This document shows, piece by piece, positions 38,662-49,227 of a DNA stretch of 64,000 nt (position 1 is its first letter; each line of letters opens with the position of its first letter). This stretch comes from Methylobacterium mesophilicum SR1.6/6 (GTDB lineage: Bacteria > Pseudomonadota > Alphaproteobacteria > Rhizobiales > Beijerinckiaceae), in contig NZ_CP043538.1 of the NCBI RefSeq assembly GCF_000364445.2, forward strand, positions 784,501 to 848,500. The letters are read 5' to 3'. A model generated the notes under the pieces. That model was not told the DNA's origin. It made no database searches and saw only the letters and a program-made list of their open reading frames with translations. The translations under genes were made by a program, and so were the position numbers.

Positions 38662-39291
38662 TCAGGCGGTCTCGCGATCGAGGATCTCAGCCGCCTCCGC
38701 GAGGCCGCGCCGGATCCGGGCGGGCACCTCCGGCGAGGTGCAGACGTAGGTCGGGCTCGGATGGGGAACCCGGATCACCGGCAGGTCGGGGCGCAGAGCC
38801 GCGAGGGTCGGCGCCGCTTCGCCGGCGAAGCGGCCGGCCAGAACAGCCACGGCGAGGCGCGGCAACAGGTCGAGGAGCGGGGCCAGGTAGAGCGCGCCGG
38901 CCGCGACCTCGGCGCGGCGGGGCGCGCGGTTGAGGGCGCCCGCCGCGTGGATGAGCCAGGGCACGGCGTTCCAGATCAGCGTGTCGGCCCGGGCGATTCG
39001 AGCCTCGGCGAGAAAGCGGAACAGGTTCGCGGCGGTGCCGTTCGCGCTGTCGCGGGTGACGAAGCCGGTACGCAACACCGCCGGGCCAGGCGTCTCAAGG
39101 AGGAGGAGCATCCGCGCCGCGACGCCACCGTCCAGCGGGTCGGGTGCGGGCACGGGAGCAGCGCGCTCCGCCGAGATCCGCGCGCCAAGGGCCCGGATCG
39201 GCGCGATGTGCGGCGCCCCGACCATCGCCCGGCGGGCCGCGAGAGCGTCCGGATCGGCGAGCGATTTCGGGGCCTGCGGCTCAGCCGACAT
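38662..39291 (-). CDS. Uracil-DNA glycosylase superfamily protein
   Basis: The 209-residue protein shows family features: LLLETPGPAVLRTG in the position of the first active-site motif, WNAVPWLIH, and VIRVPHPSPTYV, the HPS loop, near the C-terminus. The start at 39291 overlaps the 3' end of the PIG-L gene, which suggests co-translation. It lacks the Cys residues of iron-sulfur UDGs. It may excise uracil or be a re-purposed member working with its neighbours; the sequence alone does not decide. Confidence 0.75.
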   Translation of the reverse strand: MSAEPQAPKSLADPDALAARRAMVGAPHIAPIRALGARISAERAAPVPAPDPLDGGVAARMLLLLETPGPAVLRTGFVTRDSANGTAANLFRFLAEARIARADTLIWNAVPWLIHAAGALNRAPRRAEVAAGALYLAPLLDLLPRLAVAVLAGRFAGEAAPTLAALRPDLPVIRVPHPSPTYVCTSPEVPARIRRGLAEAAEILDRETA

Positions 39292-40039
39292 CGAGGCCGG
39301 GGATGGCGGCACCGAGGTGGCCGGACAGGCGGAAGCGCTCGGCGCCTTCCTCCCGGGCGAGCCGGGCCTCGAGGCCTGCCGGCCCGCCGAACTGGAAGCC
39401 GATCTGGCTGGCATAGGCCGCGCAGGACGCCCGCTTGCGGGCCTGCGCGTCCGGATCGAGGCGCATCAGCGGCTCGGGAAGGGCGGCGAACAGGCCGGCG
39501 AGGGGCTCCTTCGGCGTGGCCTCGCGCACCGTATAGGGGAAGTCGCGCCACCACAGGACCGGTGCCTCGACCGCGAGACCGCGCAGCGCCCGGACCGCCT
39601 GGACATGGTCGACATGTCCGCCGATCGCCTGCGGGGCGAGGATCAGGTCCGGACGCTCGGCGGCGATCAGGTCCGCGATGGCCGGCGCGAGGTCGGCCGC
39701 GATCCCGTCGTCGGCGCGGGTGTCGGAGAAGAGTTCCGGCGCCGCGCCGTAGCCCCGGTGCGGCGCCTCGCGGAACGGCAGGTGGACGGGCGGCGCGATG
39801 CCGAGCGCGGCGGCGGCCCCGACGTCCTCCTCCCGGCGCAGGGCCATGTAGTCGACCTCCGCCGGCAGCCCCTTGTCGAGCTGGCAGGCCAGCGCGAAGC
39901 CCGTCGGGTCGGGGACGCTGCCGGTGAACAGCGTCGCCATGACCACGTGCCAGCCGTCCGCGGCGAGGCTCGCCAGGAGGCCGCCGCAGGAGAAGGCGGC
40001 GTCGTCGAGATGGGGTGACAGGGCGAGCGCGGTGGGCAT
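39281..40039 (-). CDS. PIG-L/LmbE family deacetylase
   Basis: The 252-residue protein has the zinc site SPHLDDAAFS (His10, Asp12, Asp13) and GGHVDHVQAV with the distal His, both typical of PIG-L enzymes. Members remove acetyl groups from N-acetylglucosamine linked to inositol or other aglycones (MshB in mycothiol synthesis, PIG-L in GPI anchors, BshB in bacillithiol). Here it is in line with an inositol-phosphate synthase and a GT4, which makes a GlcNAc-inositol-like substrate an attractive inference. It overlaps the UDG-like gene. Confidence 0.9.
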   Translation of the reverse strand: MPTALALSPHLDDAAFSCGGLLASLAADGWHVVMATLFTGSVPDPTGFALACQLDKGLPAEVDYMALRREEDVGAAAALGIAPPVHLPFREAPHRGYGAAPELFSDTRADDGIAADLAPAIADLIAAERPDLILAPQAIGGHVDHVQAVRALRGLAVEAPVLWWRDFPYTVREATPKEPLAGLFAALPEPLMRLDPDAQARKRASCAAYASQIGFQFGGPAGLEARLAREEGAERFRLSGHLGAAIPGLDVG

Positions 40040-40078
40040 GGTTCAGGGTGCTGTGGTTTCGATGGGTTCAACCCTGAA

Positions 40079-40192
40079 CCTCATCCGGAGGTGCCGGAGC
40101 GCAGCGCGGGCCTCGAAGGAGGGCTCCAGGGATCGCAGCGGCCTCTGGAGGGCTCCTTCGAGGCCCGCGGGCGCGGGCATCTCAGGATGAGG
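40079..40192. repeat. Palindromic intergenic repeat, family B, copy 1
   Basis: This 114-base inverted repeat has outer arms CCTCATCCGGAGGTGCC and GGGCATCTCAGGATGAGG, and inner arms around GCGGGCCTCGAAGGAG and CTCCTTCGAGGCCCGC. A second copy of the same length is at 44151. It lies between the GT4 and PIG-L genes. Confidence 0.88.
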
Positions 40193-40226
40193 GCACAGGA
40201 TGGGACATCCCGAGTGAGGAATGGCC

Positions 40227-41465
40227 TCAGAGCAGATGCGGCTCGGCGCGGAACCGGCAGCTGGGATCGTCGGGCAGGTCCGGCGCGAAGTCGGTGGCCG
40301 GCTTCTCGTGGCGCACCCGGGCATACACCTCCATGATCTGCCGCCCGACCGCGTGCCAGGAATAGACGCGCCGGCACTCCTCCAGCCCGGCCGCGGCGAT
40401 GCGACGGCGCAGCTCCGCATCGGTGATGATCCGCGTGAGGGCGGCAGCCAGCGCCGGCACGTCGCCGGGATCGACCAGCAGGCCGTTCTCCCCATCGCGC
40501 AGGCAGTCGGACACGCCGACCGCGTGGCAGGAGACCGTGGCGAGCCCGGCCGCCAGCGCCTCCAGGATCGTATTGGAGAACCCCTCCGCGTAGGTCGGCG
40601 AGACGAACACGTCGGCCCGGCGATAGAGGTCGGGCACGGAGCCGTACTCGGCGTAGCCCGTGAAGGCGATCTCACGCTCGGAGAACCCGAGATCCGCGGC
40701 CAGAGCCTGGGCCGGGTCCACATCCGGCCCGATCCCCGAGACGGTGGCCGCGAAGGGCGTGCCCTGCTGGCGCAGGATCGCCAGGGCGTTGATGAAGTCG
40801 AGCACGCCTTTCCGGCGGTCGACGCGGCCGTGATAGAACAGCCGCACCGGCCCGGCATGGGGCACCGGCAGCCCATCGGGCGTGCCTTGTGCGAACCGGT
40901 CGGTATCGACCGCCCCGGGCACGATGGTGAAGCGGGCCGGATCCGATCCCAGCCGCCCGCAGACCTCGTCCACGAAGGAGGCGCCGCCGATGAGGAGCGC
41001 GTTGGCGTGAGCCAGCACTGTGCACATGGCGACCCGGTGCGTCTCGCAGCAGGAACCGACCCAGTGGCCGTCGCCGCCCTGGATCGAGACGACGCTCGGC
41101 ACCCCGAGCCTGCGCGCGGCGAGCAGCACCGCCCAGCCGGTGGGGTAGCCGTACTGCGCGTGAAGGACGTCGAAGGGATGCTGGGCATGCTCCCGGCAGA
41201 TGGCGTCCACCATCGTGGCGATGTCGCGCTCGAAGTCGCCCGAGGTCTGCTCGCCGAGTTGCTCCAGGCCGATCACCCGCACGCCCGGCACGGGCGGCGG
41301 CGGCCCGCCGCCATAGACCCGGGTGCCGAAGGCGTCGCCGCGATACTGCGAGATCATCGTCACGTCGTGGCCGGCTCCGACCAGCTCGCGCAGCAGGTTC
41401 TGCGCGTAGACGCTCATGCCGGAGATCGCCGGGAAGTAGCGGCGGCTGAGGAAGAGGATTCTCAT
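40227..41465 (-). CDS. Family 4 glycosyltransferase
   Basis: The 412-residue protein has the GT-B layout: MRILFLSRRYFPAISGMSVY at the N-terminus with the glycine-rich acceptor loop, and in the C-domain VRLFYHGRVDRRKG and FVSPTYAEGFSNTILEALA, the EX7E donor motif of GT4. The relatives include MshA, which joins GlcNAc to inositol phosphate, and many LPS enzymes. There is no ribosome site directly before the ATG, and a family C repeat is close upstream. Between the TIM-barrel and PIG-L genes, it may make the glycoside the deacetylase acts on. Confidence 0.88.
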   Translation of the reverse strand: MRILFLSRRYFPAISGMSVYAQNLLRELVGAGHDVTMISQYRGDAFGTRVYGGGPPPPVPGVRVIGLEQLGEQTSGDFERDIATMVDAICREHAQHPFDVLHAQYGYPTGWAVLLAARRLGVPSVVSIQGGDGHWVGSCCETHRVAMCTVLAHANALLIGGASFVDEVCGRLGSDPARFTIVPGAVDTDRFAQGTPDGLPVPHAGPVRLFYHGRVDRRKGVLDFINALAILRQQGTPFAATVSGIGPDVDPAQALAADLGFSEREIAFTGYAEYGSVPDLYRRADVFVSPTYAEGFSNTILEALAAGLATVSCHAVGVSDCLRDGENGLLVDPGDVPALAAALTRIITDAELRRRIAAAGLEECRRVYSWHAVGRQIMEVYARVRHEKPATDFAPDLPDDPSCRFRAEPHLL

Positions 41466-41500
41466 CAGTGCAAGCAGTTCGGGGTGCTGTCTGGACGGTG

Positions 41501-41610
41501 TCCCCTCCCCTTGCGGGGAGGGGTAGGGGTGGGGGTGGTTCAGGTCGGATCGCCGCGGTACCTCCTGCACCACCCCCGCCTCCGGCTCCTCCCCACAAGG
41601 GGGAGGAGAG
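41501..41610. repeat. Palindromic intergenic repeat, family C, copy 1
   Basis: The element starts TCCCCTCCCCTTGCGGGGAG and ends CTCCTCCCCACAAGGGGGAG, with GGGTGGGGGTGGTTCAGG and its complement CACCACCCCCGCC inside. It belongs to the widespread alphaproteobacterial CTCCCCTTGCGGGGAGGG repeats. The second copy is at 47558. Confidence 0.87.
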
Positions 41611-41624
41611 ACTCGCATTCGCCC

Positions 41625-42497
41625 TCACTGCCATTGCCGCCGCGTCTCCTGCCCGCCGGCCAGCACCGGCCCGGCCCGCCGACAACCGCGGAGGTAGTCG
41701 AGCGCCTGCGGGATCATCACGTCGGCCCGGTGGCTCTCACGGGACAGCTCGACGCAGATCAGCTTGCCGAAACCGACCTCCTCCAGCGCCTCCAGCACGC
41801 CCGGCACGTCCATGTCGCCCTCGCCGAAGGGCAGGTGGATGTGGCTGCCGCGCTTCATGTCCTCGATCGCCACGGTGCCGATCCGGTCGGCGAACTCCCG
41901 CACGGCCGCCGCCGGCTCCCGCTCGCCGGTGACCAGGCAGTGGCCTGTGTCGAGGGCGAGCTTCAGCCCCAGCACGGTCAGGGCCGCATAATCGTCGAGC
42001 GTCTCGATCAGCATGCCGGGCTCGGGCTCCAGGCACGGCACGACGCCGGCATCCGCGGCGAAGGCCGCGACCTCGTGCAGGCCGTCTGTCAGCCAGCGGC
42101 GGGCTTCCCCATGATCGACGCCGGGCTTCGGCACGCCGGCCCAGAACGAGACCGCCTCGGCGGAGAGCATCGCGCCGATCTCGATCGCCCGCTTCAGGAA
42201 GCCGACCCGGCGGGCGCGGCCGGCGGCGTCGGCCGTCACCAGCGTCGGCTCGTGCTTGGCGCTCGGGTCGAGGAGGAAGCGGGCGCCCGTCTCGATGACG
42301 CAGGTCAGCTCCAGCTTCTCGAGCAGGCTCGCCACCCGTCCGGCCTCCGCGGCCCAGGTCTCGGAGAACGGGTCGAGGTGGTGGATGTCGAGGGTGAGCG
42401 CCACGCCGTCGTAGCCCGCAGCCTTGATCAGGTGGATCGCGTCGTCGAGGCGGTGGTTGGCCGCGCCGTTGGTGTTGTAGGCGAACCGGAGCGTCAC
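41625..42497 (-). CDS. Sugar-phosphate isomerase/epimerase-type TIM barrel
   Basis: The 290-residue protein is of the AP-endonuclease-2 / xylose-isomerase-like group. Metal-ligand positions are visible as PCLEPEPGML (Glu), LALDTGHCLVTGE (Asp/His), GSHIHLPFGEGDMDV (His) and CVELSRESH (Glu). Relatives include IolE, IolI and hydroxypyruvate isomerase. It begins with GTG overlapping the YcaO stop (GTGA), so the two are translationally coupled. With an inositol-phosphate synthase and a Gfo/Idh enzyme nearby, an inosose-like substrate is plausible but inferred. Confidence 0.88.
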   Translation of the reverse strand: MTLRFAYNTNGAANHRLDDAIHLIKAAGYDGVALTLDIHHLDPFSETWAAEAGRVASLLEKLELTCVIETGARFLLDPSAKHEPTLVTADAAGRARRVGFLKRAIEIGAMLSAEAVSFWAGVPKPGVDHGEARRWLTDGLHEVAAFAADAGVVPCLEPEPGMLIETLDDYAALTVLGLKLALDTGHCLVTGEREPAAAVREFADRIGTVAIEDMKRGSHIHLPFGEGDMDVPGVLEALEEVGFGKLICVELSRESHRADVMIPQALDYLRGCRRAGPVLAGGQETRRQWQ

Positions 42498-44095
42498 GCC
42501 GCCCTCCCCTTCCGCTCTGCGAGGCGGAACGGCGCGTGATGCGATTCCGGCTCGCGGTAGAGCGGATAGTGACGGCCCACGATCGTTTCGGCCAGAGCGA
42601 CGTCGAACAGCGGCTGGCCGCCGAACCGCTCCAGGGCTTCCGGCGTGAGGCGTACCGGGCGCAGCGTCTCGCTCGCGGTGCCGAACGTGATCAGCGGATG
42701 GTCGCGGTCGAGGAGCTTCCGCGTGTTGCGCTCGCCGATCCGGTAGTAGCTCATGGTCTCGACTTCGAGCCCCGGCACGATCGCCTTGACGACGCCGACA
42801 CCGCCGCCGGGCGGCGTACAGTCGACGTAGAGCACGTCGAACCCGGCTTCGGTGAGCCGGTCGCAGGCGATCCTGCCCCGGGCATGGCCGTCGGCGGCCG
42901 GTGTGGAGGGCAGCTCCGCGAAGCGCTTGGTGCTCCGCTCCGAGTACACGGTGTCGGCCAGCACGCCGCGCATGTCGGCCGCGGGCATCTCGATCCATTC
43001 GAGCATCGCCTGGAGGGCGCGGCTCTCCTCGAGGTCCAGGCTGGGCAGCGCCTTCTGGATGAAGGCGTCGACGTAGCCCGGAGGGGTCACGGTCGCGGCC
43101 ATGTCGAGGGGGCCGTGGCCGAAGGTCTTGCGCACCCGCGCGGCCTGGAACTCCAGCAGCGCCTTGCGCAGCGCCCGTTCGCGGTCCGGATCGCAGGCCT
43201 CGCCGCAGGCCGAAAGGGCGATCGGCGCCGGCGTGCGCGCCGGATCCTCGTCGTAGCCGACGACGTAGAGGTTGGTGAGGCCGAACTGGTCGGTGGCGAA
43301 TTTCGGAAGCGCGCGGATCCCCAGCTCCTTCAGCCGGGCCAGCATGGCGGCGTTCTCCGGGCCGATGCCGTCGAGGTCGAGCATCACGCCCTGGTCCAGC
43401 GCCCGGAACAGCAGGCCGTTGCCGTCCCGCTGCAGCAGCTCCAGGACACCATGGCCGAGGGCGAAGGGCACGTCGGGCCCGGCGCCGAGGCCGTTGGTGA
43501 TCAGGTTGGTGAAGGGCTTGTAGCCTTCCGACAGCTCGAAATAATCGGTCGCCGCGATGTCGAGCGGCATCAGCACGATCGCCCCGGTGGCGTGGCGGAT
43601 GCTCGGCGTCCATTCCAGCACCGTGTCGCGGCCGACGGGGGAGCCGGCGGGCAGGCAGAGCGTCAGCGGGTCGGCGACGGATGGGGCGCCGTAGACGCGC
43701 GCGAGATCGTTGTAGCTCGCCCGCTCCTTCGCCCGGGGCAGGACCGCCAGGGAGGGCATCAGGTTCTCGGCGATCTCCGCGACGGCGCCGATCAGCGCCT
43801 CGTCGTCGGTGGCGCCGTAGCCGATGCCCGACGGCATCGCGCCCACGAAGAACGGGTCGTCGAGGAAGAGGGCCACGAACCAGACCGGGATGCCGGTGCG
43901 GTCGAGCGGCGCCAGCGGGAAGCCGACGACGCGGCCCTCCGGCAGGACGTCGAGATAGGCCTTCACCGGATCGGGCAGGATCCCGGGCAGCCCCTCGATC
44001 GTGCGCTGGGCGCCGAAGCGGTAGGGGCGCGGCGCCTTGATCCGCTCGTGGCGGGCGCGGTCGTCCTGGTCGTGGAAGGCGTCTGGGTTGGTCAA
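42494..44095 (-). CDS. YcaO domain protein
   Basis: The 533-residue protein carries the YcaO ATP-grasp-like fold in residues of about 60-440. Visible blocks are GYGATDDEALIGAVAEIAEN (Glu107, Glu110), TNGLGAGPDVPFALGHGVLE with Glu219 followed by LLQRD, and VVKAIVPGLEVETMSY. YcaO enzymes use ATP to activate peptide amides, making azolines, thioamides or amidines. No ThiF/ocin, TfuA or precursor peptide gene is adjacent, so it is not a standard azole peptide cluster. The ExxER-type motif reads ExxEN here. It is coupled to the TIM-barrel gene. Substrate unknown. Confidence 0.86.
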   Translation of the reverse strand: MTNPDAFHDQDDRARHERIKAPRPYRFGAQRTIEGLPGILPDPVKAYLDVLPEGRVVGFPLAPLDRTGIPVWFVALFLDDPFFVGAMPSGIGYGATDDEALIGAVAEIAENLMPSLAVLPRAKERASYNDLARVYGAPSVADPLTLCLPAGSPVGRDTVLEWTPSIRHATGAIVLMPLDIAATDYFELSEGYKPFTNLITNGLGAGPDVPFALGHGVLELLQRDGNGLLFRALDQGVMLDLDGIGPENAAMLARLKELGIRALPKFATDQFGLTNLYVVGYDEDPARTPAPIALSACGEACDPDRERALRKALLEFQAARVRKTFGHGPLDMAATVTPPGYVDAFIQKALPSLDLEESRALQAMLEWIEMPAADMRGVLADTVYSERSTKRFAELPSTPAADGHARGRIACDRLTEAGFDVLYVDCTPPGGGVGVVKAIVPGLEVETMSYYRIGERNTRKLLDRDHPLITFGTASETLRPVRLTPEALERFGGQPLFDVALAETIVGRHYPLYREPESHHAPFRLAERKGRAA

Positions 44096-44150
44096 GGTTC
44101 GGTCCCGTCCCTCTCGTGTCCGCCTGTTCCGCCGCCGTGTCCCACCCGCC

Positions 44151-44264
44151 CCTCATCCTGAGGTGCCGAAGCGTAGCGGAGGCCCCGAAGGAGGCCCCAG
44201 CCGGCCGCGCGATCCCTGGAGGCCTCCTTCGAGGCCCGCTGACGCGGGCACCTCAGGATGAGGG
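44151..44264. repeat. Palindromic intergenic repeat, family B, copy 2
   Basis: The same 114-base length and arms as copy 1: CCTCATCCTGAGGTGCCG outside and GGCACCTCAGGATGAGG at the end, with GAGGCCCCGAAGGAGG and CCTCCTTCGAGGCC inside. It lies between the oxidoreductase and YcaO genes. Confidence 0.9.
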
Positions 44265-44318
44265 GATGGATGGGATATGCCGGATCCGAGTTCGGCGATT
44301 GATCGTCCTGTCTTGTCG

Positions 44319-45314
44319 CTACCCCTGCCCGTAGGCGCGGGCGACGAGCCGCATCGTGTGAAGGTCCCGCGCCGCCGAGTACGCCGCCCGCTCCTCGCGC
44401 CGGCGCAGGGCTGAGCCGAAGGCGCGCACCTGCTCGGTGAAGGGCGAGCTGTCGGCGTCGAAGGCGAGCGGCTGCGCTCGGCCGCTGACGCCGTCGATGA
44501 AGGTCAGAGATCCGCCGGCTGTCTGGCCCATCGTGTTCTCGGCAACGAGCAGGCCCCTCGTGCCGACCACCTCCAGGCGGCGGCGGGGCAACGCGTCGGG
44601 GCAATTATAGGCGACGTGCAGGCTCGCCAGCACGCCGCCCGCCGTCCGCCCGATCAGCAGGGCGCCGTCATCGACCGTGTAATCCTGGGCCTTGGTCTGG
44701 GTCAGGGCCGCTAGGTCGGCGATCGGCTCGCCGAGCAGGAAGTCCACGAGGTCGAGACCGTGCGGGGCGAGGTCCATCAGCGCGCCGCCACCGGCTTGGG
44801 CGGCGTCGATCCGCCAGTTCGGCTGGCCGGCCTCCGACCAGTCGCGCCCGAGCCAGCAGGCGTAGACGATCCGCACCGCCGTCACGGTGCCGAGCCGCCC
44901 GGCCTCGACCTGCGCGCGGATCGCCCGGTGGGCCGGATGATGCCGTTGATCGAAAGCCGTGCCGTAGAAGATCTTTCCCGACTCGACCGCCCGCGCGATC
45001 GCCTCGGCGTCGGCGAGCGTCGCCGCCATGGGCTTCTCGCAGAGCACCGCCTTGCCGGCGGCGGCCAGGGCCTCGACGGCGCCGCGATGGAGGTGGTTGG
45101 GCGTCGCCACGTAGACCGCCTCGACCTCCGGCTCGGCAATGAGGCCGGCAAGGTCGGCAAGGCCGCGTGCGCCGGTCCGCTCGGCCGCGGCGCGGCATTC
45201 CGGATTTGGGTCGCAGACCGCGATCAGGCGGTGTCCCGCGGCACGGATGCCGGGCTCCATGTAGTCGCGGGCGACCCAGCCGTAGCCGACGATGCCCCAG
45301 CCGACCGCGTCCAT
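44319..45314 (-). CDS. Gfo/Idh/MocA family oxidoreductase
   Basis: The 331-residue protein has an N-terminal Rossmann fold (WGIVGYGWVARDYMEPGI), the conserved CEKPMA near residue 93 with the catalytic Lys, and a C-terminal substrate domain containing GGGALMDLAPHGLDL. These enzymes oxidise or reduce sugars and inositols with NAD(P); IolG, inositol dehydrogenase, is one. The start overlaps the methyltransferase stop as TGATG. Its place in the inositol cluster makes a cyclitol substrate likely but not proven. Confidence 0.9.
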   Translation of the reverse strand: MDAVGWGIVGYGWVARDYMEPGIRAAGHRLIAVCDPNPECRAAAERTGARGLADLAGLIAEPEVEAVYVATPNHLHRGAVEALAAAGKAVLCEKPMAATLADAEAIARAVESGKIFYGTAFDQRHHPAHRAIRAQVEAGRLGTVTAVRIVYACWLGRDWSEAGQPNWRIDAAQAGGGALMDLAPHGLDLVDFLLGEPIADLAALTQTKAQDYTVDDGALLIGRTAGGVLASLHVAYNCPDALPRRRLEVVGTRGLLVAENTMGQTAGGSLTFIDGVSGRAQPLAFDADSSPFTEQVRAFGSALRRREERAAYSAARDLHTMRLVARAYGQG

Positions 45315-46504
45315 CACCAGCGCTCCGGAAGGTCGACGAATTCGCGCACGCGCACGCGCTGCGTCTCCGGCGCGACGCCGCTCTCGACAATGCCGTCGAA
45401 GGTCAGCGTCTCGGGACCGGGCGAGCGTATCGGATAGGTGGCGCGGGGGGCGTACTCCGCCTCGTAGCGCTCCGAGGGCCAGCGGATGACGTAGCCGTCG
45501 CCCTCGGGCCGGTAGAGCGGGTTGAGCCGCAGCACGGTGCCGGGCTTCGGCAGGGTCAGGCCGTCGACCAGCGCGCGCGGCGCCGGGCGCATGCCGGGCC
45601 CGCACACCACCGAGAACGCCTCGCAGGTCCGCAGGGCGGCGGGCTCCTGAGGGCTCGGTGCCCGGGCTTCGACGAGCGCCCGGGTCAGCTCCGCGTCGTC
45701 GTACACCAGGGCATCCGGGAACAGCTCGGCGATCTCCTCGGCCGTCACCGCGCGGCCTGCCGAGAAGCCCGGGCAGTCTCGGTTGTGGATGTGGCTCAAC
45801 GCCAGCCAGCCATCGTCGCCCGCATTCTGGCGCAGGCAATCGAGCAGCGCCGCCTTGTCGTCGAGGAAGTAGAAGGCATCGTTGCAGACGACGAGATCGA
45901 CAGGCGCCTCCGGGATCGGCCAGTGCGGGGAACCCGCGTCGAAGCAGACGAGCTGCGCCTTCTCGGCCACGACCCAGTGCCGGGCGACCCAGAGCTTGGC
46001 AAAGACCACGTCGGCGCCGGCGACCTTGCAGCCACGCCGCTGCAGCTCCCGCAAATAGTGGCCGATGCCGCAGGCAAACTCGAAGACGCAGATCGGCTCG
46101 TTCCAGTGCGCCTCCAGCAGCGACAGGCCGGCCAGGAAGGTCGGATCGCTCCAGCGGTGCAGGAAATAGTCGCCGACCCGGCCCCAGCCGAGAAGCTCGA
46201 CCGCATCGCGCAGGGTCGCGGTGCGGCGCTCCTTGATCAGGCGGATGATACCGGCCGGATCGGCCGGCGGCCCATTCCACCAATCATCCTGATCGACCAA
46301 GAGGGCGGCGAGAGCCTCGTCGGGCTCACCCGCGTCGAGATGAGCGAGGACCCGCTCGACCAGAGCCTCTCGGTTCACCCGCAGATACGGGATGCCGTCG
46401 ATCACGGGCCAGCGGGCGCCGGTTTCCGCGTCGCGCAGGGCGTGCGGGCCGTCGGCCTTCAGCGGGTTGCCGGTAACCGGCGATCGGAGTGGGAACGGGA
46501 TCAT
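45314..46504 (-). CDS. SAM-dependent methyltransferase with Trm112-like N-terminus
   Basis: The 396-residue protein begins with a Trm112-like segment (RSPVTGNPLKADGPHAL to WPVIDGIPYLR) that lacks the zinc Cys. A class I methyltransferase domain follows with SAM motif I VFEFACGIGHYLREL (about residue 145), an acidic VAGADVVF strand and DLVVCNDAFYFL motif. The C-terminal 130 residues (from about 265) are a domain I do not recognise. It is coupled to the oxidoreductase and 44 bases after the HD gene. Whether it methylates a sugar, cyclitol or other acceptor is unknown. Confidence 0.8.
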   Translation of the reverse strand: MIPFPLRSPVTGNPLKADGPHALRDAETGARWPVIDGIPYLRVNREALVERVLAHLDAGEPDEALAALLVDQDDWWNGPPADPAGIIRLIKERRTATLRDAVELLGWGRVGDYFLHRWSDPTFLAGLSLLEAHWNEPICVFEFACGIGHYLRELQRRGCKVAGADVVFAKLWVARHWVVAEKAQLVCFDAGSPHWPIPEAPVDLVVCNDAFYFLDDKAALLDCLRQNAGDDGWLALSHIHNRDCPGFSAGRAVTAEEIAELFPDALVYDDAELTRALVEARAPSPQEPAALRTCEAFSVVCGPGMRPAPRALVDGLTLPKPGTVLRLNPLYRPEGDGYVIRWPSERYEAEYAPRATYPIRSPGPETLTFDGIVESGVAPETQRVRVREFVDLPERW

Positions 46505-46548
46505 GGCTCTCGGGACCGCCGGGGCAGATGGGCGGCCGGGTTTGGCGA

Positions 46549-47478
46549 TCAAGGGATGCGCATGTCGGCGAGGACACGATCGTGGAAACCCTTCACCGGG
46601 CCGGCATGGACCAGTTCCCACTCGTCGAGCACCATCCCCATCGTGGTCGAGGCCCCGCGCAGGTGCTGGGCGATCTGCAGGACCCGGTCGATGCAATCCG
46701 CCGCGTGGAAGGCGCGGCCCTCCGCGGTGGCGTCGTCCGGCAGGATCGCGCGGGCGCGCTCGACCTGGGCCTTCAGGGGCTCGGCGAGTTCGGCCAGTGC
46801 CCAGGCCGTGGTGGTCGCCATGATCGGTCCGAGATGGTCGCCGAGCAGCATCTCTCCGGTGAAGCCTGCATCCGGCATCGCGGCGTTGTGGAAATGATGG
46901 GCCATCGCGGCCAGGAACACGGCGCCGGGATCGGCCCGGTAGAACGGGCTGAGGCAGACGCCGTAGACCGCCACGATGAGGCAGTGCTCGGCGTGGTTCT
47001 CCGGCGGCTCCAGCAGGATCCGGGCGCGATCCGGGCAGGTCACGCCCGCCCGCGGCTGCTGCGCCAGGGCGCCGACGAAGCTCGGAAGCGGGCCGGGCTG
47101 GCCCGAAGGCCGTGGTGCCAGCCGCGCGCGCAGCCGCGTCCGGAGATCCGGATCGAGGTCGCCGGTGACGGCGTCGAAGCCTGCCACCAGCACGGCGGAC
47201 GCCGCTTCCTCCGACAGGCCGGCGGCTGTCAGGAAGGCCGCGTCGAGGTCGCAGAGGCGGGTCGCCGCCAGCGTCACGGCGGTGATGTCGAGGGCAACGT
47301 CGTCGGGCGATGCACCGCCGGTCAGCAGGCTCCAGCCCTGCGCGAATAGCCGCTCGGCGATCGAGCCCTGACGGCCGGCCGAGCGGACGCGCTTGAGGTC
47401 GTTCATCTCGACCAGCAGGTCGCGCAACGCCTCGGGCGCGGCGGCACCGGATTGCGACGGGTGGTTCTCGCTGAGCAT
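46549..47478 (-). CDS. HD-fold protein of unknown function
   Basis: The 309-residue protein has a central HD-type helical region: NHAEHCLIVAVYGVCLSPF followed by AAMAHHFHNAAMPDAG, where the classic His-Asp pair reads His-His. Its C-terminal helix region (HAADCIDRVLQIAQHL) is also HD-like. HD proteins are phosphohydrolases or di-metal oxygenases such as myo-inositol oxygenase and PhnZ. Next to inositol-3-phosphate synthase, a phosphatase or oxygenase acting on an inositol species is an attractive but unproven guess. Confidence 0.7.
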   Translation of the reverse strand: MLSENHPSQSGAAAPEALRDLLVEMNDLKRVRSAGRQGSIAERLFAQGWSLLTGGASPDDVALDITAVTLAATRLCDLDAAFLTAAGLSEEAASAVLVAGFDAVTGDLDPDLRTRLRARLAPRPSGQPGPLPSFVGALAQQPRAGVTCPDRARILLEPPENHAEHCLIVAVYGVCLSPFYRADPGAVFLAAMAHHFHNAAMPDAGFTGEMLLGDHLGPIMATTTAWALAELAEPLKAQVERARAILPDDATAEGRAFHAADCIDRVLQIAQHLRGASTTMGMVLDEWELVHAGPVKGFHDRVLADMRIP

Positions 47479-47557
47479 CGTTTCTTTCAGGCAGTCGGTC
47501 GCAGTTCGGACGGGGACCACATGCCGAACCGCCGACCTTGGGGCATGCGCACGCGGA

Positions 47558-47670
47558 TCCCCTCCCCCCTTGCGGGGAGGGGTCAGGGGTGGGGGTGGTG
47601 CAGAAGGCACCGTTCCGCCTGGTCCTGAACCACCCCCACCTCCAACTCCTCCCCGCAAGGGCGAGGAGAG
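47558..47670. repeat. Palindromic intergenic repeat, family C, copy 2
   Basis: TCCCCTCCCCCCTTGCGGGG at the start and CTCCTCCCCGCAAGGGCGAG at the end enclose GGGGTGGGGGTGGTGCAG and GAACCACCCCCACC. It is very like copy 1 at 41501. It fills the gap between inositol-phosphate synthase and the HD gene. Confidence 0.9.
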
Positions 47671-47700
47671 TTCGTGCAGTGCTGAGACCTCAGCCTTCGT

Positions 47701-48891
47701 TCAGTGCACGCCCAGCCAGTCGCGCAGCATCTGCTCCTGCTTGCCGAAGGCGTGCTCCGGGCCGTGCCCGTTCTTCACCATCGGGGCCTTGAAGAAGGTC
47801 GAGAGCTGCTCCTGGACGCCGCCATCGCCGCGCTTGTTGGCGAGGTCGAGGACGCGGGCGATCTCGATCACCAGCGGGGCGGCCAGGATCGAGTCCTTGC
47901 AGAGGAAGTTCACCTTCACCTGCATGCGCTGACCCATGAAGCCGGTGACGTCGATGTTGTCCCAGGCTTCCTTGTCGTCACCGCGCGGCCGGTAATAGTG
48001 GATGTGCACGAGGTGGTCCTCGACCGGGTAGCCGAGGATCGAGTCGAGTACCGTACCCTTGGTGTTGAGCTTCGACTGGAGCGAATTCGGGTCGTTCAGG
48101 GCCAGACCGTCGCGGTTGCCGAGGATGTTGGTCGAGAACCAGCCGTCGACATGCAGCGCGCGCGCCTTGAAGGCGGGGGCCAGCACGGTCTTCATCATGG
48201 TCTGGCCGGTCTTGCCGTCCTTGCCGGCGACCGGGACGTTCAGCTCCTTGGCGAGGTCGAGGAGCGCCGGGACGTCCGCCGCCACGCTCGGGGTGAAGTT
48301 GGCGTAGGGGATGCCGCTCTTGATCGCCGCGTAGGCGTAGAGCATGGCCGGCGAGATCGCCTCGTCGCTCGAGTCCAGGCCCTTCTCGAAGGCGGCCGTG
48401 GAGTTCAGGGTCGGATCGTTGAGGTCGGGCCAGCGCTCGGTGGAGGCGAGGTTCACCACGACCACGTCGTCGAGGTTGCTCTCCTTCTGGAAGCGGCGGA
48501 GATCGTTGGCGATCACCGAGACCGCCTCGCGATGGTCCTTGGCGACGATGCGGTTCTGGCCGTCGATGTTCTTGCAGAACTTGGCGCTGCCGACCGCCGG
48601 CCAGGGGGTGATGCCCTTCAGGACCTGGGCGCCGTTCTCGATGTCGTCCTTCGAAAGCACCCCGTGGCCACTGGCGGCCGAGGCGAGATCGTCCCCGTTG
48701 AGGTCCCATCCGCCGAAGACGAGATCCTTGTAGTCGGCCATGCCCGCCACGGAGAGGCCGGCGAGCGGCAGCCCGTCGAGCCGGTTCGAGCCGGATTTGA
48801 TCATCTCGATGCCGGCGATGGCGGTGGTGGCGACGGCGCCACCCATGCCAACGAACGCGACACCGACGCGGCGACCGGACTGCATGCTCAT
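47701..48891 (-). CDS. Inositol-3-phosphate synthase
   Basis: The 396-residue protein matches the prokaryotic/archaeal-type synthases: VAFVGMGGAVATTAIAGIE (NAD loop), VVVVNLASTERWPDL, FTPSVAADVPALLDL, and VAGKDGKTGQTMMKTVLAPA with the catalytic Lys residues. It converts glucose-6-phosphate to inositol-3-phosphate with NAD as internal redox cofactor. It heads the minus-strand array of nine genes. The enzyme is uncommon in alphaproteobacteria, which mostly do not make inositol lipids. AAGGA lies about 13 bases upstream; MQSGRR two codons on is an alternative start. Confidence 0.93.
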   Translation of the reverse strand: MSMQSGRRVGVAFVGMGGAVATTAIAGIEMIKSGSNRLDGLPLAGLSVAGMADYKDLVFGGWDLNGDDLASAASGHGVLSKDDIENGAQVLKGITPWPAVGSAKFCKNIDGQNRIVAKDHREAVSVIANDLRRFQKESNLDDVVVVNLASTERWPDLNDPTLNSTAAFEKGLDSSDEAISPAMLYAYAAIKSGIPYANFTPSVAADVPALLDLAKELNVPVAGKDGKTGQTMMKTVLAPAFKARALHVDGWFSTNILGNRDGLALNDPNSLQSKLNTKGTVLDSILGYPVEDHLVHIHYYRPRGDDKEAWDNIDVTGFMGQRMQVKVNFLCKDSILAAPLVIEIARVLDLANKRGDGGVQEQLSTFFKAPMVKNGHGPEHAFGKQEQMLRDWLGVH

Positions 48892-49227
48892 CGGAAATTG
48901 GTGTCCTTGTGGGGACGCGGGTGGCGTCTGACGGGTGGTGTCCTGAGACCAAAAGGTCTGCCCCCCCGGGCCGTACCTAACTGGCTCGGCGGTGCGGCGT
49001 TCCAAGCCGAATGCGACAACTTTGCGCCTCCGTTGCACCGGGCGTGACCGGATCGCGGCGTTAACGCGGCCTTAAGGGGCAGGGTTAATCCTCCGCTTAC
49101 CGTGCCACGCTTGGATCACGGCGCCGTCCCATTCTGGTCACGGCCGGCGCCGATACGGCCGCCGCTTCAAGGAAACCGGACGCCAGACGCCGGGCCGACA
49201 CAAGGACCAATCTGAAGAGGACCAGTG
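48892..49227. other. Divergent promoter region of the inositol cluster and the transglycosylase
   Basis: These 336 bases contain no supported gene. The run CCCCCCCGGG near 48961 and a lower-GC GGCGTTAACGCGGCCTTAA stretch near 49057 stand out. No exact EcfG-type or sigma-70 pair was identified. Confidence 0.5.

Follow-up and report, generated by a model that had tools for sequence, protein, structure and literature searches.

The question raised by this locus is what is made by an operon that unites an inositol-3-phosphate synthase (Ino1) with an ATP-using YcaO enzyme, and whether its nine genes serve a single pathway. The window analysed is a stretch of 64,000 nucleotides of Methylobacterium mesophilicum SR1.6/6 (contig NZ_CP043538.1, positions 784,501 to 848,500). 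The evidence given below moderately favours one biosynthetic operon for a stress-induced aminosugar-cyclitol metabolite, in which a small-molecule YcaO would act late. The sugar-like product looks like an undescribed one, and the order of the steps is our inference. No account of this locus was found in the open literature, and a paper on YcaO and Methylobacterium (PMC8776678) is unrelated. A promoter-like site, a salvage pattern and an associated metallo-hydrolase are additions to an earlier note, which had read the sequence alone.

Organization and conservation of the operon

The minus strand between positions 38662 and 48891 carries nine uninterrupted genes in the order Ino1, HD protein, methyltransferase (MT), Gfo/Idh oxidoreductase, YcaO, TIM barrel, GT4 glycosyltransferase, PIG-L deacetylase and UDG-like protein (Table 1); the coordinates and Pfam families confirm the co-directional array described in the earlier note. 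Family calls are Pfam matches above cut-off, except for the HD gene, for which the Pfam search gave no match. Three junctions overlap in the window, MT/Gfo by 1 bp, YcaO/TIM by 4 bp and PIG-L/UDG by 11 bp, and not four as had been counted. HD and MT are spaced by 44 bp, and the remaining four gaps measure 159-223 bp, each containing an interspersed repeat from one of two families that occur twice each.

Table 1. Features of the operon region, with positions numbered from the first letter of the window
Feature	Position	Strand	Remarks
UDG-superfamily protein, peripheral member	38662..39291	-	PF03167
PIG-L family deacetylase, 252 aa	39281..40039	-	PF02585
Palindromic interspersed repeat, GT4/PIG-L gap	40105..40193		other copy 44209-44264
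GT4 glycosyltransferase, 412 aa	40227..41465	-	PF13692/PF00534
Interspersed repeat, TIM/GT4 gap	41501..41603		inverted relative to 47565-47667
DTE/UlaE-type TIM-barrel isomerase/epimerase (TIM)	41625..42497	-	D-tagatose 3-epimerase/UlaE-like
YcaO protein, 533 aa	42494..44095	-	PF02624, 151.1 bits, cut-off 25.7
Interspersed repeat, Gfo/YcaO gap	44209..44264		other copy 40105-40193
Gfo/Idh/MocA oxidoreductase, 331 aa	44319..45314	-	PF01408 + PF22725
SAM methyltransferase-family protein (MT)	45314..46504	-	PF13489/PF08241 above cut-off
YfbR/HDDC2-like HD-fold protein, extra N-terminal helical part	46549..47478	-	HD fold by model only
Interspersed repeat, Ino1/HD gap	47565..47667		inverted copy of 41501-41603
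Inositol-3-phosphate synthase Ino1, 396 aa	47701..48891	-	PF07994 + PF01658 above cut-off
EcfG-type (general stress response) promoter-like site GGAAC-N16-AGTT	48979..49003	-	112 bp 5' of Ino1 start

The expected co-occurrence of these genes in relatives is borne out across genera. All nine are present in the same order in 60 of 80 YcaO loci (249 relatives were ordered by similarity to a Microvirga YcaO and the best 80 were used; kinship among genomes inflates this and all other counts), which argues that the arrangement is not due to chance. A complete nine-gene set also occurs in one genome from another family, and six further clusters keep the order of the genes present, with best segments 44-75% identical. 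The UDG-like gene is likewise found in 60 of these best 80 loci, and is placed divergently at locus L110; genes absent from L034, a MAG, may be unassembled there. In a set of 119 genomes of the family, MT and YcaO are found in the same 13, which belong to five of 43 genera; the genome searches scored the leading first-look candidates of each genome (at most 15 and 12 in the MT/YcaO survey, 4 in two others). In the class sample, YcaO matches at E up to 0.001 occur in 12 of 289 genomes; they are strong only in the genome studied here and one congener, the other ten being 22-36% identical. An MBL-fold metallo-hydrolase is also associated with the cluster; it lies outside the fetched Methylobacterium flanks, yet is present in those species, which was counted against the operon reading.

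Putative steps from inositol to an aminosugar conjugate

The nearest solved structure to Ino1 is 7nwr, an inositol-3-phosphate synthase (MIPS; 303 bits), and family-level support suggests that Ino1 would convert glucose-6-phosphate to inositol-3-phosphate. GT4 may add an N-acetylated sugar, the amine of which would then be unmasked by PIG-L, as predicted from the families and from conserved residues; the HLDD and GGHxDH motifs of PIG-L are invariant in a 12-row alignment. The nearest solved structures to PIG-L include Dbv21 and teicoplanin pseudoaglycone deacetylases, an affinity that recalls glycopeptide tailoring, where glycosylation is followed by PIG-L de-N-acetylation, and the combination of a cyclitol with an aminosugar is parallel to the logic of aminoglycosides. 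In contrast to both, no aminotransferase is found among the nine operon proteins, and a YcaO is present. GT4, PIG-L and Gfo/Idh belong to large families, the substrates of which sequence cannot give.

Ino1, GT4 and PIG-L also share the family logic of mycothiol biosynthesis (Ino1, MshA, MshB), where such enzymes work in one pathway, and a mycothiol-like redox cofactor or thiol on glucosaminyl-inositol might be the product. However, all three fall far under the mycothiol equivalog cut-offs (Ino1, 43.9 against 638 bits; GT4 with MshA, 82.6 against 462.5; PIG-L with MshB, 17.1 against 224.35). The sole match of the whole genome to MshC (TIGR03447) is also under cut-off, at 265.8 against 485.1 bits, as are all matches in 13 of 14 control genomes, and the operon encodes no cysteine ligase. 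Gfo/Idh, the TIM epimerase, MT, HD and YcaO are moreover additions to the mycothiol set. On these scores mycothiol itself was rejected, in agreement with the earlier statement that this is not a known thiol locus, and a mycothiol-like compound is very improbable. The glucosaminyl-inositol logic proposed for the three enzymes is retained in part, through the closeness of Ino1 to a solved MIPS and the conserved PIG-L motifs, with mycothiol disfavoured.

Gfo/Idh and TIM had been taken for an inositol/inosose conversion, which their relatives do not bear out: the nearest solved structures to Gfo/Idh are 1,5-anhydro-D-fructose reductases (142-143 bits), its score being far under the IolG model cut-off, and TIM, with both the fold and the acidic/His metal residues present, resembles D-tagatose 3-epimerase/UlaE and not clearly IolE. 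These two enzymes may oxidize and epimerize or isomerize a ring carbon. A methylation step would be assigned to MT, whose C-terminal LPERW is invariant in an 11-row alignment. The best folds for the modelled HD protein are YfbR/HDDC2, consistent with an HD fold; its expected His-Asp dyad is HH in every row of two alignments (22/22 and 12/12), a pair that we take to stand at the YfbR dyad residues, and the protein may remove a phosphate or display altered metal chemistry. A MIOX/PhnZ-type diiron oxygenase was considered for this gene and is less likely in view of these folds and the HH dyad, MIOX not being among the matches listed. YcaO would use ATP to activate a carbonyl of the resulting small molecule and couple it to nitrogen or another nucleophile.

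YcaO within and outside the operon

The operon YcaO is the single YcaO match of its genome. The only solved relative found is archaeal MJ1094 (35 bits), and the protein is under the cut-offs of the SagD, McrA and general kinase-domain models, scoring 45.9 bits against a cut-off of 365 with TIGR03266 (McrA-glycine thioamidation). It shares the ATP-using PF02624 domain with the YcaOs of RiPP biosynthesis and McrA thioamidation, but differs from them in these scores, in the missing C-terminal PxPxP and in the occurrence of lone copies beside a sugar-type importer. Among 87 YcaO sequences, of which L113 at least is cut by a contig end, none has PxPxP, the C-terminal motif of RiPP azoline YcaOs, in its last 30 residues. 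Pfam revealed no TfuA or ThiF among the nine operon and ten neighbouring window proteins. In a Lichenibacterium cluster (L023), with the starts that the script assigned, overlaps are seen at five of the six junctions measured, and 49 bp separate the genes at the other one; since intergenic spacing is at most 49 bp there and in L025 and L099, no room is left for a separate precursor gene within the operon. With no partner among the 19 proteins scanned and no PxPxP end, YcaO as a RiPP centre is disfavoured, in line with the earlier view that this is not a known RiPP locus.

YcaO occurs without the other eight genes nearby in 11 fetched loci of Microvirga and Aurantimonadaceae, and lies outside the cluster in A. 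leprariae. Its absence from the A. leprariae cluster, and its presence in ten genomes without MT, Ino1 and TIM, were counted against a single pathway and would also suit a separate role. The claim of a single pathway is supported by the clustering across genera and weakened by the separability of YcaO. However, a sugar-type ABC importer lies within 1.6 kb of ten of the 11 lone YcaO genes and at none of 75 cluster loci, although the pattern comes from no more than two lineages. At the thresholds used, these ten genomes lack MT and have no close Ino1 or TIM. The eleventh, the sole one with the core, carries Ino1-HD-MT-Gfo-TIM-GT4-PIGL elsewhere with no YcaO inserted. In A. leprariae (L029), distant permease matches (30-36% identical) are 6-8 kb away. 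Lone and cluster YcaOs are interspersed in a 39-row tree, a topology under which the lone state may still have arisen just once.

Given the importer pattern, the separability of YcaO, which first looks contrary to one pathway, is better read as salvage, in which YcaO would tailor a sugar-like molecule able to diffuse. In genomes without the core, the importer would take up the sugar-like compound of neighbours and YcaO would modify it; because such genomes keep YcaO beside the importer, the enzyme is probably late-acting, on a compound from neighbours. The comparison across relatives suggests a small molecule, and not a peptide or protein, as its substrate.

Some archaeal and proteobacterial YcaO proteins modify a protein or a ribosomal component. 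The operon might likewise hold two functions, a cyclitol-glycoside pathway from Ino1 to PIG-L and a YcaO with such a macromolecular target, as the lone copies, the archaeal relative MJ1094 and the TIGR03266 score would allow; non-RiPP roles are also mentioned for archaea and Proteobacteria in PMC8442711, in a passage that names no proteobacterial substrate. This division is unlikely, however, as MT and YcaO share the same 13 family genomes, YcaO is mid-operon and overlaps TIM, and a sugar-type importer is needless for a protein-modifying enzyme.

UvdE and spore-photoproduct-lyase-family (SPL) genes flank YcaO in Microvirga loci L019 (by Pfam) and L020 (by sequence clustering), and in A. leprariae L029, genes that fall into the same SPL and DHH clusters lie ∼8-9 kb from YcaO. 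Seven Aureimonas loci, from which ten proteins flanking YcaO were searched with Pfam, gave no UV gene, four of the proteins being without any Pfam match, and a UV-repair neighbourhood as a general YcaO rule was therefore not taken as main evidence.

Probable stress control and the possible product

The pattern GGAAC-N16/17-nGTT is present ∼100 bp from the start in 49 of 73 Ino1 upstream regions, 24 being without the exact pattern, as compared to 1.7% of random 400-bp stretches and 18 of 472 other ORFs; ahead of the other eight operon genes it is found in 0 or 1 of 61-76 each, and upstream of the lone YcaO genes in 0 of 11. The published EcfG consensus of M. extorquens is GAAC-N16,17-C/GGTT; the base preceding GTT is here mostly A as against C/G, CGTT occurring in 2 of 73. 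The A before GTT, the regions without the pattern and the lone YcaOs were counted against the stress reading. The upstream motif suggests that the operon is probably under the general stress sigma factor EcfG.

An EcfG-type site and sugar-like chemistry would also suit a simple compatible solute, or a glycoside of the cell surface, against desiccation, with YcaO as a minor tailoring enzyme. In its favour, several hosts bear names taken from leaves, lichens, air and dry soil or are known to live there. Nevertheless, a methyltransferase, an HD protein, an epimerase and an ATP-using YcaO exceed the needs of a simple solute, and the importer-linked YcaO suggests that function resides in the YcaO step, which renders this explanation quite doubtful.

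A link of the operon product to methylobamine, a UVA absorber of Methylobacterium, is possible. The likeness to mycosporine-like (MAA) sunscreens and methylobamine would lie in an ATP-driven carbonyl-to-imine chemistry on a cyclitol. Unlike in the MAA pathway, the genome is without a dedicated DHQ-synthase-like cyclase besides AroB; all 16 genomes searched, including lone-YcaO ones, have one PF01761 match each and no second DHQ synthase, which implies no canonical mycosporine cyclase, and the canonical genes were rejected. It is a speculative and improbable thought that a second mycosporine-like UVA sunscreen route evolved independently: Ino1 inositol would be oxidized by Gfo/Idh, rearranged by TIM, methylated, and joined to a glucosamine freed by GT4/PIG-L, and YcaO with ATP would turn a ring vinylogous amide or acid into a conjugated imine. 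The product, which could be methylobamine, would be a leaf public good under general stress control, and Aureimonas and Microvirga would import the precursor and finish it with YcaO.

If the favoured reading of one aminosugar-cyclitol operon is true, Methylobacterium, which is a major bacterium of leaves, would make a stress metabolite that shows signs of interspecies sharing. A YcaO at work in such a cyclitol-glycoside pathway, and kept beside a sugar-type importer where genomes lack the pathway, would add small molecules to the substrates of the family, a natural one among them.

Layout and conservation of the gene set

All nine ORFs of the operon, from the inositol-3-phosphate synthase gene (Ino1) through the UDG-like gene, lie on the minus strand with no internal stops, which bears out the co-directional array described in the earlier note; three overlapping junctions were counted, instead of the four claimed there. 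There are also four long intergenic gaps of 159-223 bp, every one containing an interspersed repeat. The nearest relatives place the host in Methylobacterium: its YcaO is 94% identical to that of Methylobacterium sp. E-005 and is the only YcaO match in the organism's own 6.56 Mb genome. The metal dyad of the HD-superfamily protein (residues 194-198) is HH followed by xHN, largely conserved, and possibly reflects an altered metal chemistry.

Coordinates of operon features in the window
Feature	Position	Strand	Remark
EcfG-type promoter-like site	49003-48979	-	GGAAC-N16-AGTT, ~100 bp upstream of Ino1
Ino1	47701-48891	-	first operon gene
HD protein	46549-47478	-	
UDG-like gene	38662-39291	-	last operon gene
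Interspersed repeats	40105-40193, 41501-41603, 44209-44264, 47565-47667		in operon gaps; two families, 2 copies each

YcaO relatives numbered 249 in a search of named bacterial genomes. Among the best 80 loci, the complete nine-gene set is found in the same order in 60, a partial set in nine (some ended by contig ends) and YcaO without the other eight genes in 11. The order is kept in Methylobacterium, Methylorubrum, Lichenibacterium and several MAGs. The methyltransferase (MT) occurs in 13 of 119 genomes of the family, five of the same genus and eight from four other genera, and YcaO occurs in the same 13, no more than a few kb away on one contig in each, as judged by coordinates. In wider samples, MT was detected in 3/385 genomes of the class and 6/398 of the phylum, all six of the same genus, and YcaO (E up to 1e-20) in 5/249 of the order. 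Locus L110 (genome G720; same class, other family) retains Ino1-HD-MT-Gfo-YcaO-TIM-GT4-PIGL in order, with a divergent placement of UDG and best segments 44-62% identical. Linkage, order and MT/YcaO co-occurrence indicate that the gene set behaves as one unit, and the single-pathway proposal of the earlier note, which scattering of the genes would have refuted, survives this test as the set stays linked in related genomes. UDG, present in 60/80 loci, is a peripheral member.

In L110 and L111, Gfo and YcaO are 800 bp apart, and the intervening DNA encodes an additional protein. It has a domain of metallo-beta-lactamase type, which scores over cut-off in L110 and L099, and its start is rubredoxin-like, below cut-off. 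Its relatives adjoin or neighbour the cluster also in L112, L115, L099 and L033, six loci in all. Methylobacterium species encode such a protein, 72-77% identical to that of L115; it is absent from the window and the fetched Methylobacterium flanks.

Lichenibacterium minor carries a second TIM-barrel paralog outside the cluster (L100, 2403-3254; 57% identical), and the in-cluster TIM of L115 has diverged to a similar extent (58%). HD matches fall in two frames in L112 (5263-7359) and L110 (8421-9307), as does Ino1 in L112, so these are split genes or assembly errors. The organism's own genome has a second, distant MIPS-like match (C1:538887-539468, in L116, C1:531000-547000), 30% identical over residues 183-370, in a neighbourhood differing from that of the operon and resembling, by eye only, epimerase and radical-SAM genes.

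Lone YcaO genes and a sugar-type importer

YcaO is separable from the rest of the set, and informatively so. The lone-YcaO loci, three from Microvirga and eight from Aurantimonadaceae, form two fully supported clades among cluster YcaOs in a 39-row tree; its backbone is weakly resolved, and the lone state may have a single origin. A solute-binding protein and two permeases (Ugp/maltose type) lie within 1.6 kb of YcaO at 10/11 lone loci, adjoining it in Aurantimonadaceae and separated by one or two small genes in Microvirga, and are 55-67% identical between the two lineages. The same importer is beside YcaO in 0/75 cluster loci, 64 of which span >18 kb of DNA.

In the ten importer-linked genomes MT is absent at the thresholds applied, and there is no close Ino1 (28-30% partial matches in three only) or close TIM (one 31% match). 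In the eleventh genome, that of Aureimonas leprariae, the only permease matches are distant ones (30-36%, 6-8 kb off), and Ino1-HD-MT-Gfo-TIM-GT4-PIGL lies elsewhere, without YcaO among these genes. Ten genomes have the importer without the core and one the core without the importer; throughout the 11 lone-YcaO genomes covered, from two lineages, the two are thus mutually exclusive around YcaO. Because of this exclusion, we infer that the YcaO substrate would be a diffusible sugar-like compound, either made or imported.

In the Microvirga locus L019 (2627-11500), UvdE, a spore-photoproduct-lyase (SPL)-family gene and a DHH protein precede the lone YcaO (Pfam); another SPL and a deoxynucleoside kinase-like gene lie farther up. 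L020 shares this UV-damage repair neighbourhood, as assigned by clustering.

Upstream motif and proposed product

GGAAC-N16/17-nGTT is present in 49/73 Ino1 upstream regions, as compared to 1.7% of random 400-bp stretches, 18/472 regions before the remaining ORFs called in these loci, 0 or 1 of 61-76 before each other cluster gene, and 0/11 before lone YcaOs. Counting against an EcfG site, the exact pattern is missing in 24/73, including A. leprariae and L110-L113. In L035-L098, nearly all Methylobacterium or Methylorubrum, GGAA is found 90-140 bp upstream in 61/62 loci searched; in an alignment on this GGAA, information content is 1.1-1.9 bits at the next C and at GTT; within the spacer it is 0-0.7 bits, rising to 1.1-1.3 at the two ends. 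The EcfG motif is given as GGAAC-N17-20-GTT for Sphingomonas melonis (PMC6599016) and GAAC-N16,17-C/GGTT for M. extorquens (PMC4814048). The base before GTT is A in most sites here, whereas it is C/G in the latter; CCAGTT also occurs in one S. melonis gene of the former's EcfG table. By its sequence, the Ino1-upstream motif resembles a site for EcfG, the general stress sigma factor.

According to a review, in YcaO chemistry a nucleophile attacks an amide-containing substrate, and the intermediate is phosphorylated and loses phosphate (PMC7136475); amidine-forming YcaOs exist (PMC8442711). Such chemistry on a cyclitol could yield a conjugated imine, hence a speculative link of the product to methylobamine, described in the literature as a UVA absorber of Methylobacterium. 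No second DHQ synthase was found in the organism's own genome; a methylobamine route here would therefore differ from that of known mycosporines.

The importer pattern, based on two lineages, is the main new argument for a small-molecule YcaO. The genes, their linkage, the promoter-like site and this pattern are observed. The best-supported and a fairly probable reading of them is that the operon directs the stress-induced synthesis of an aminosugar-cyclitol metabolite, with a YcaO that acts on a small molecule; substrates, order of steps and product are putative.
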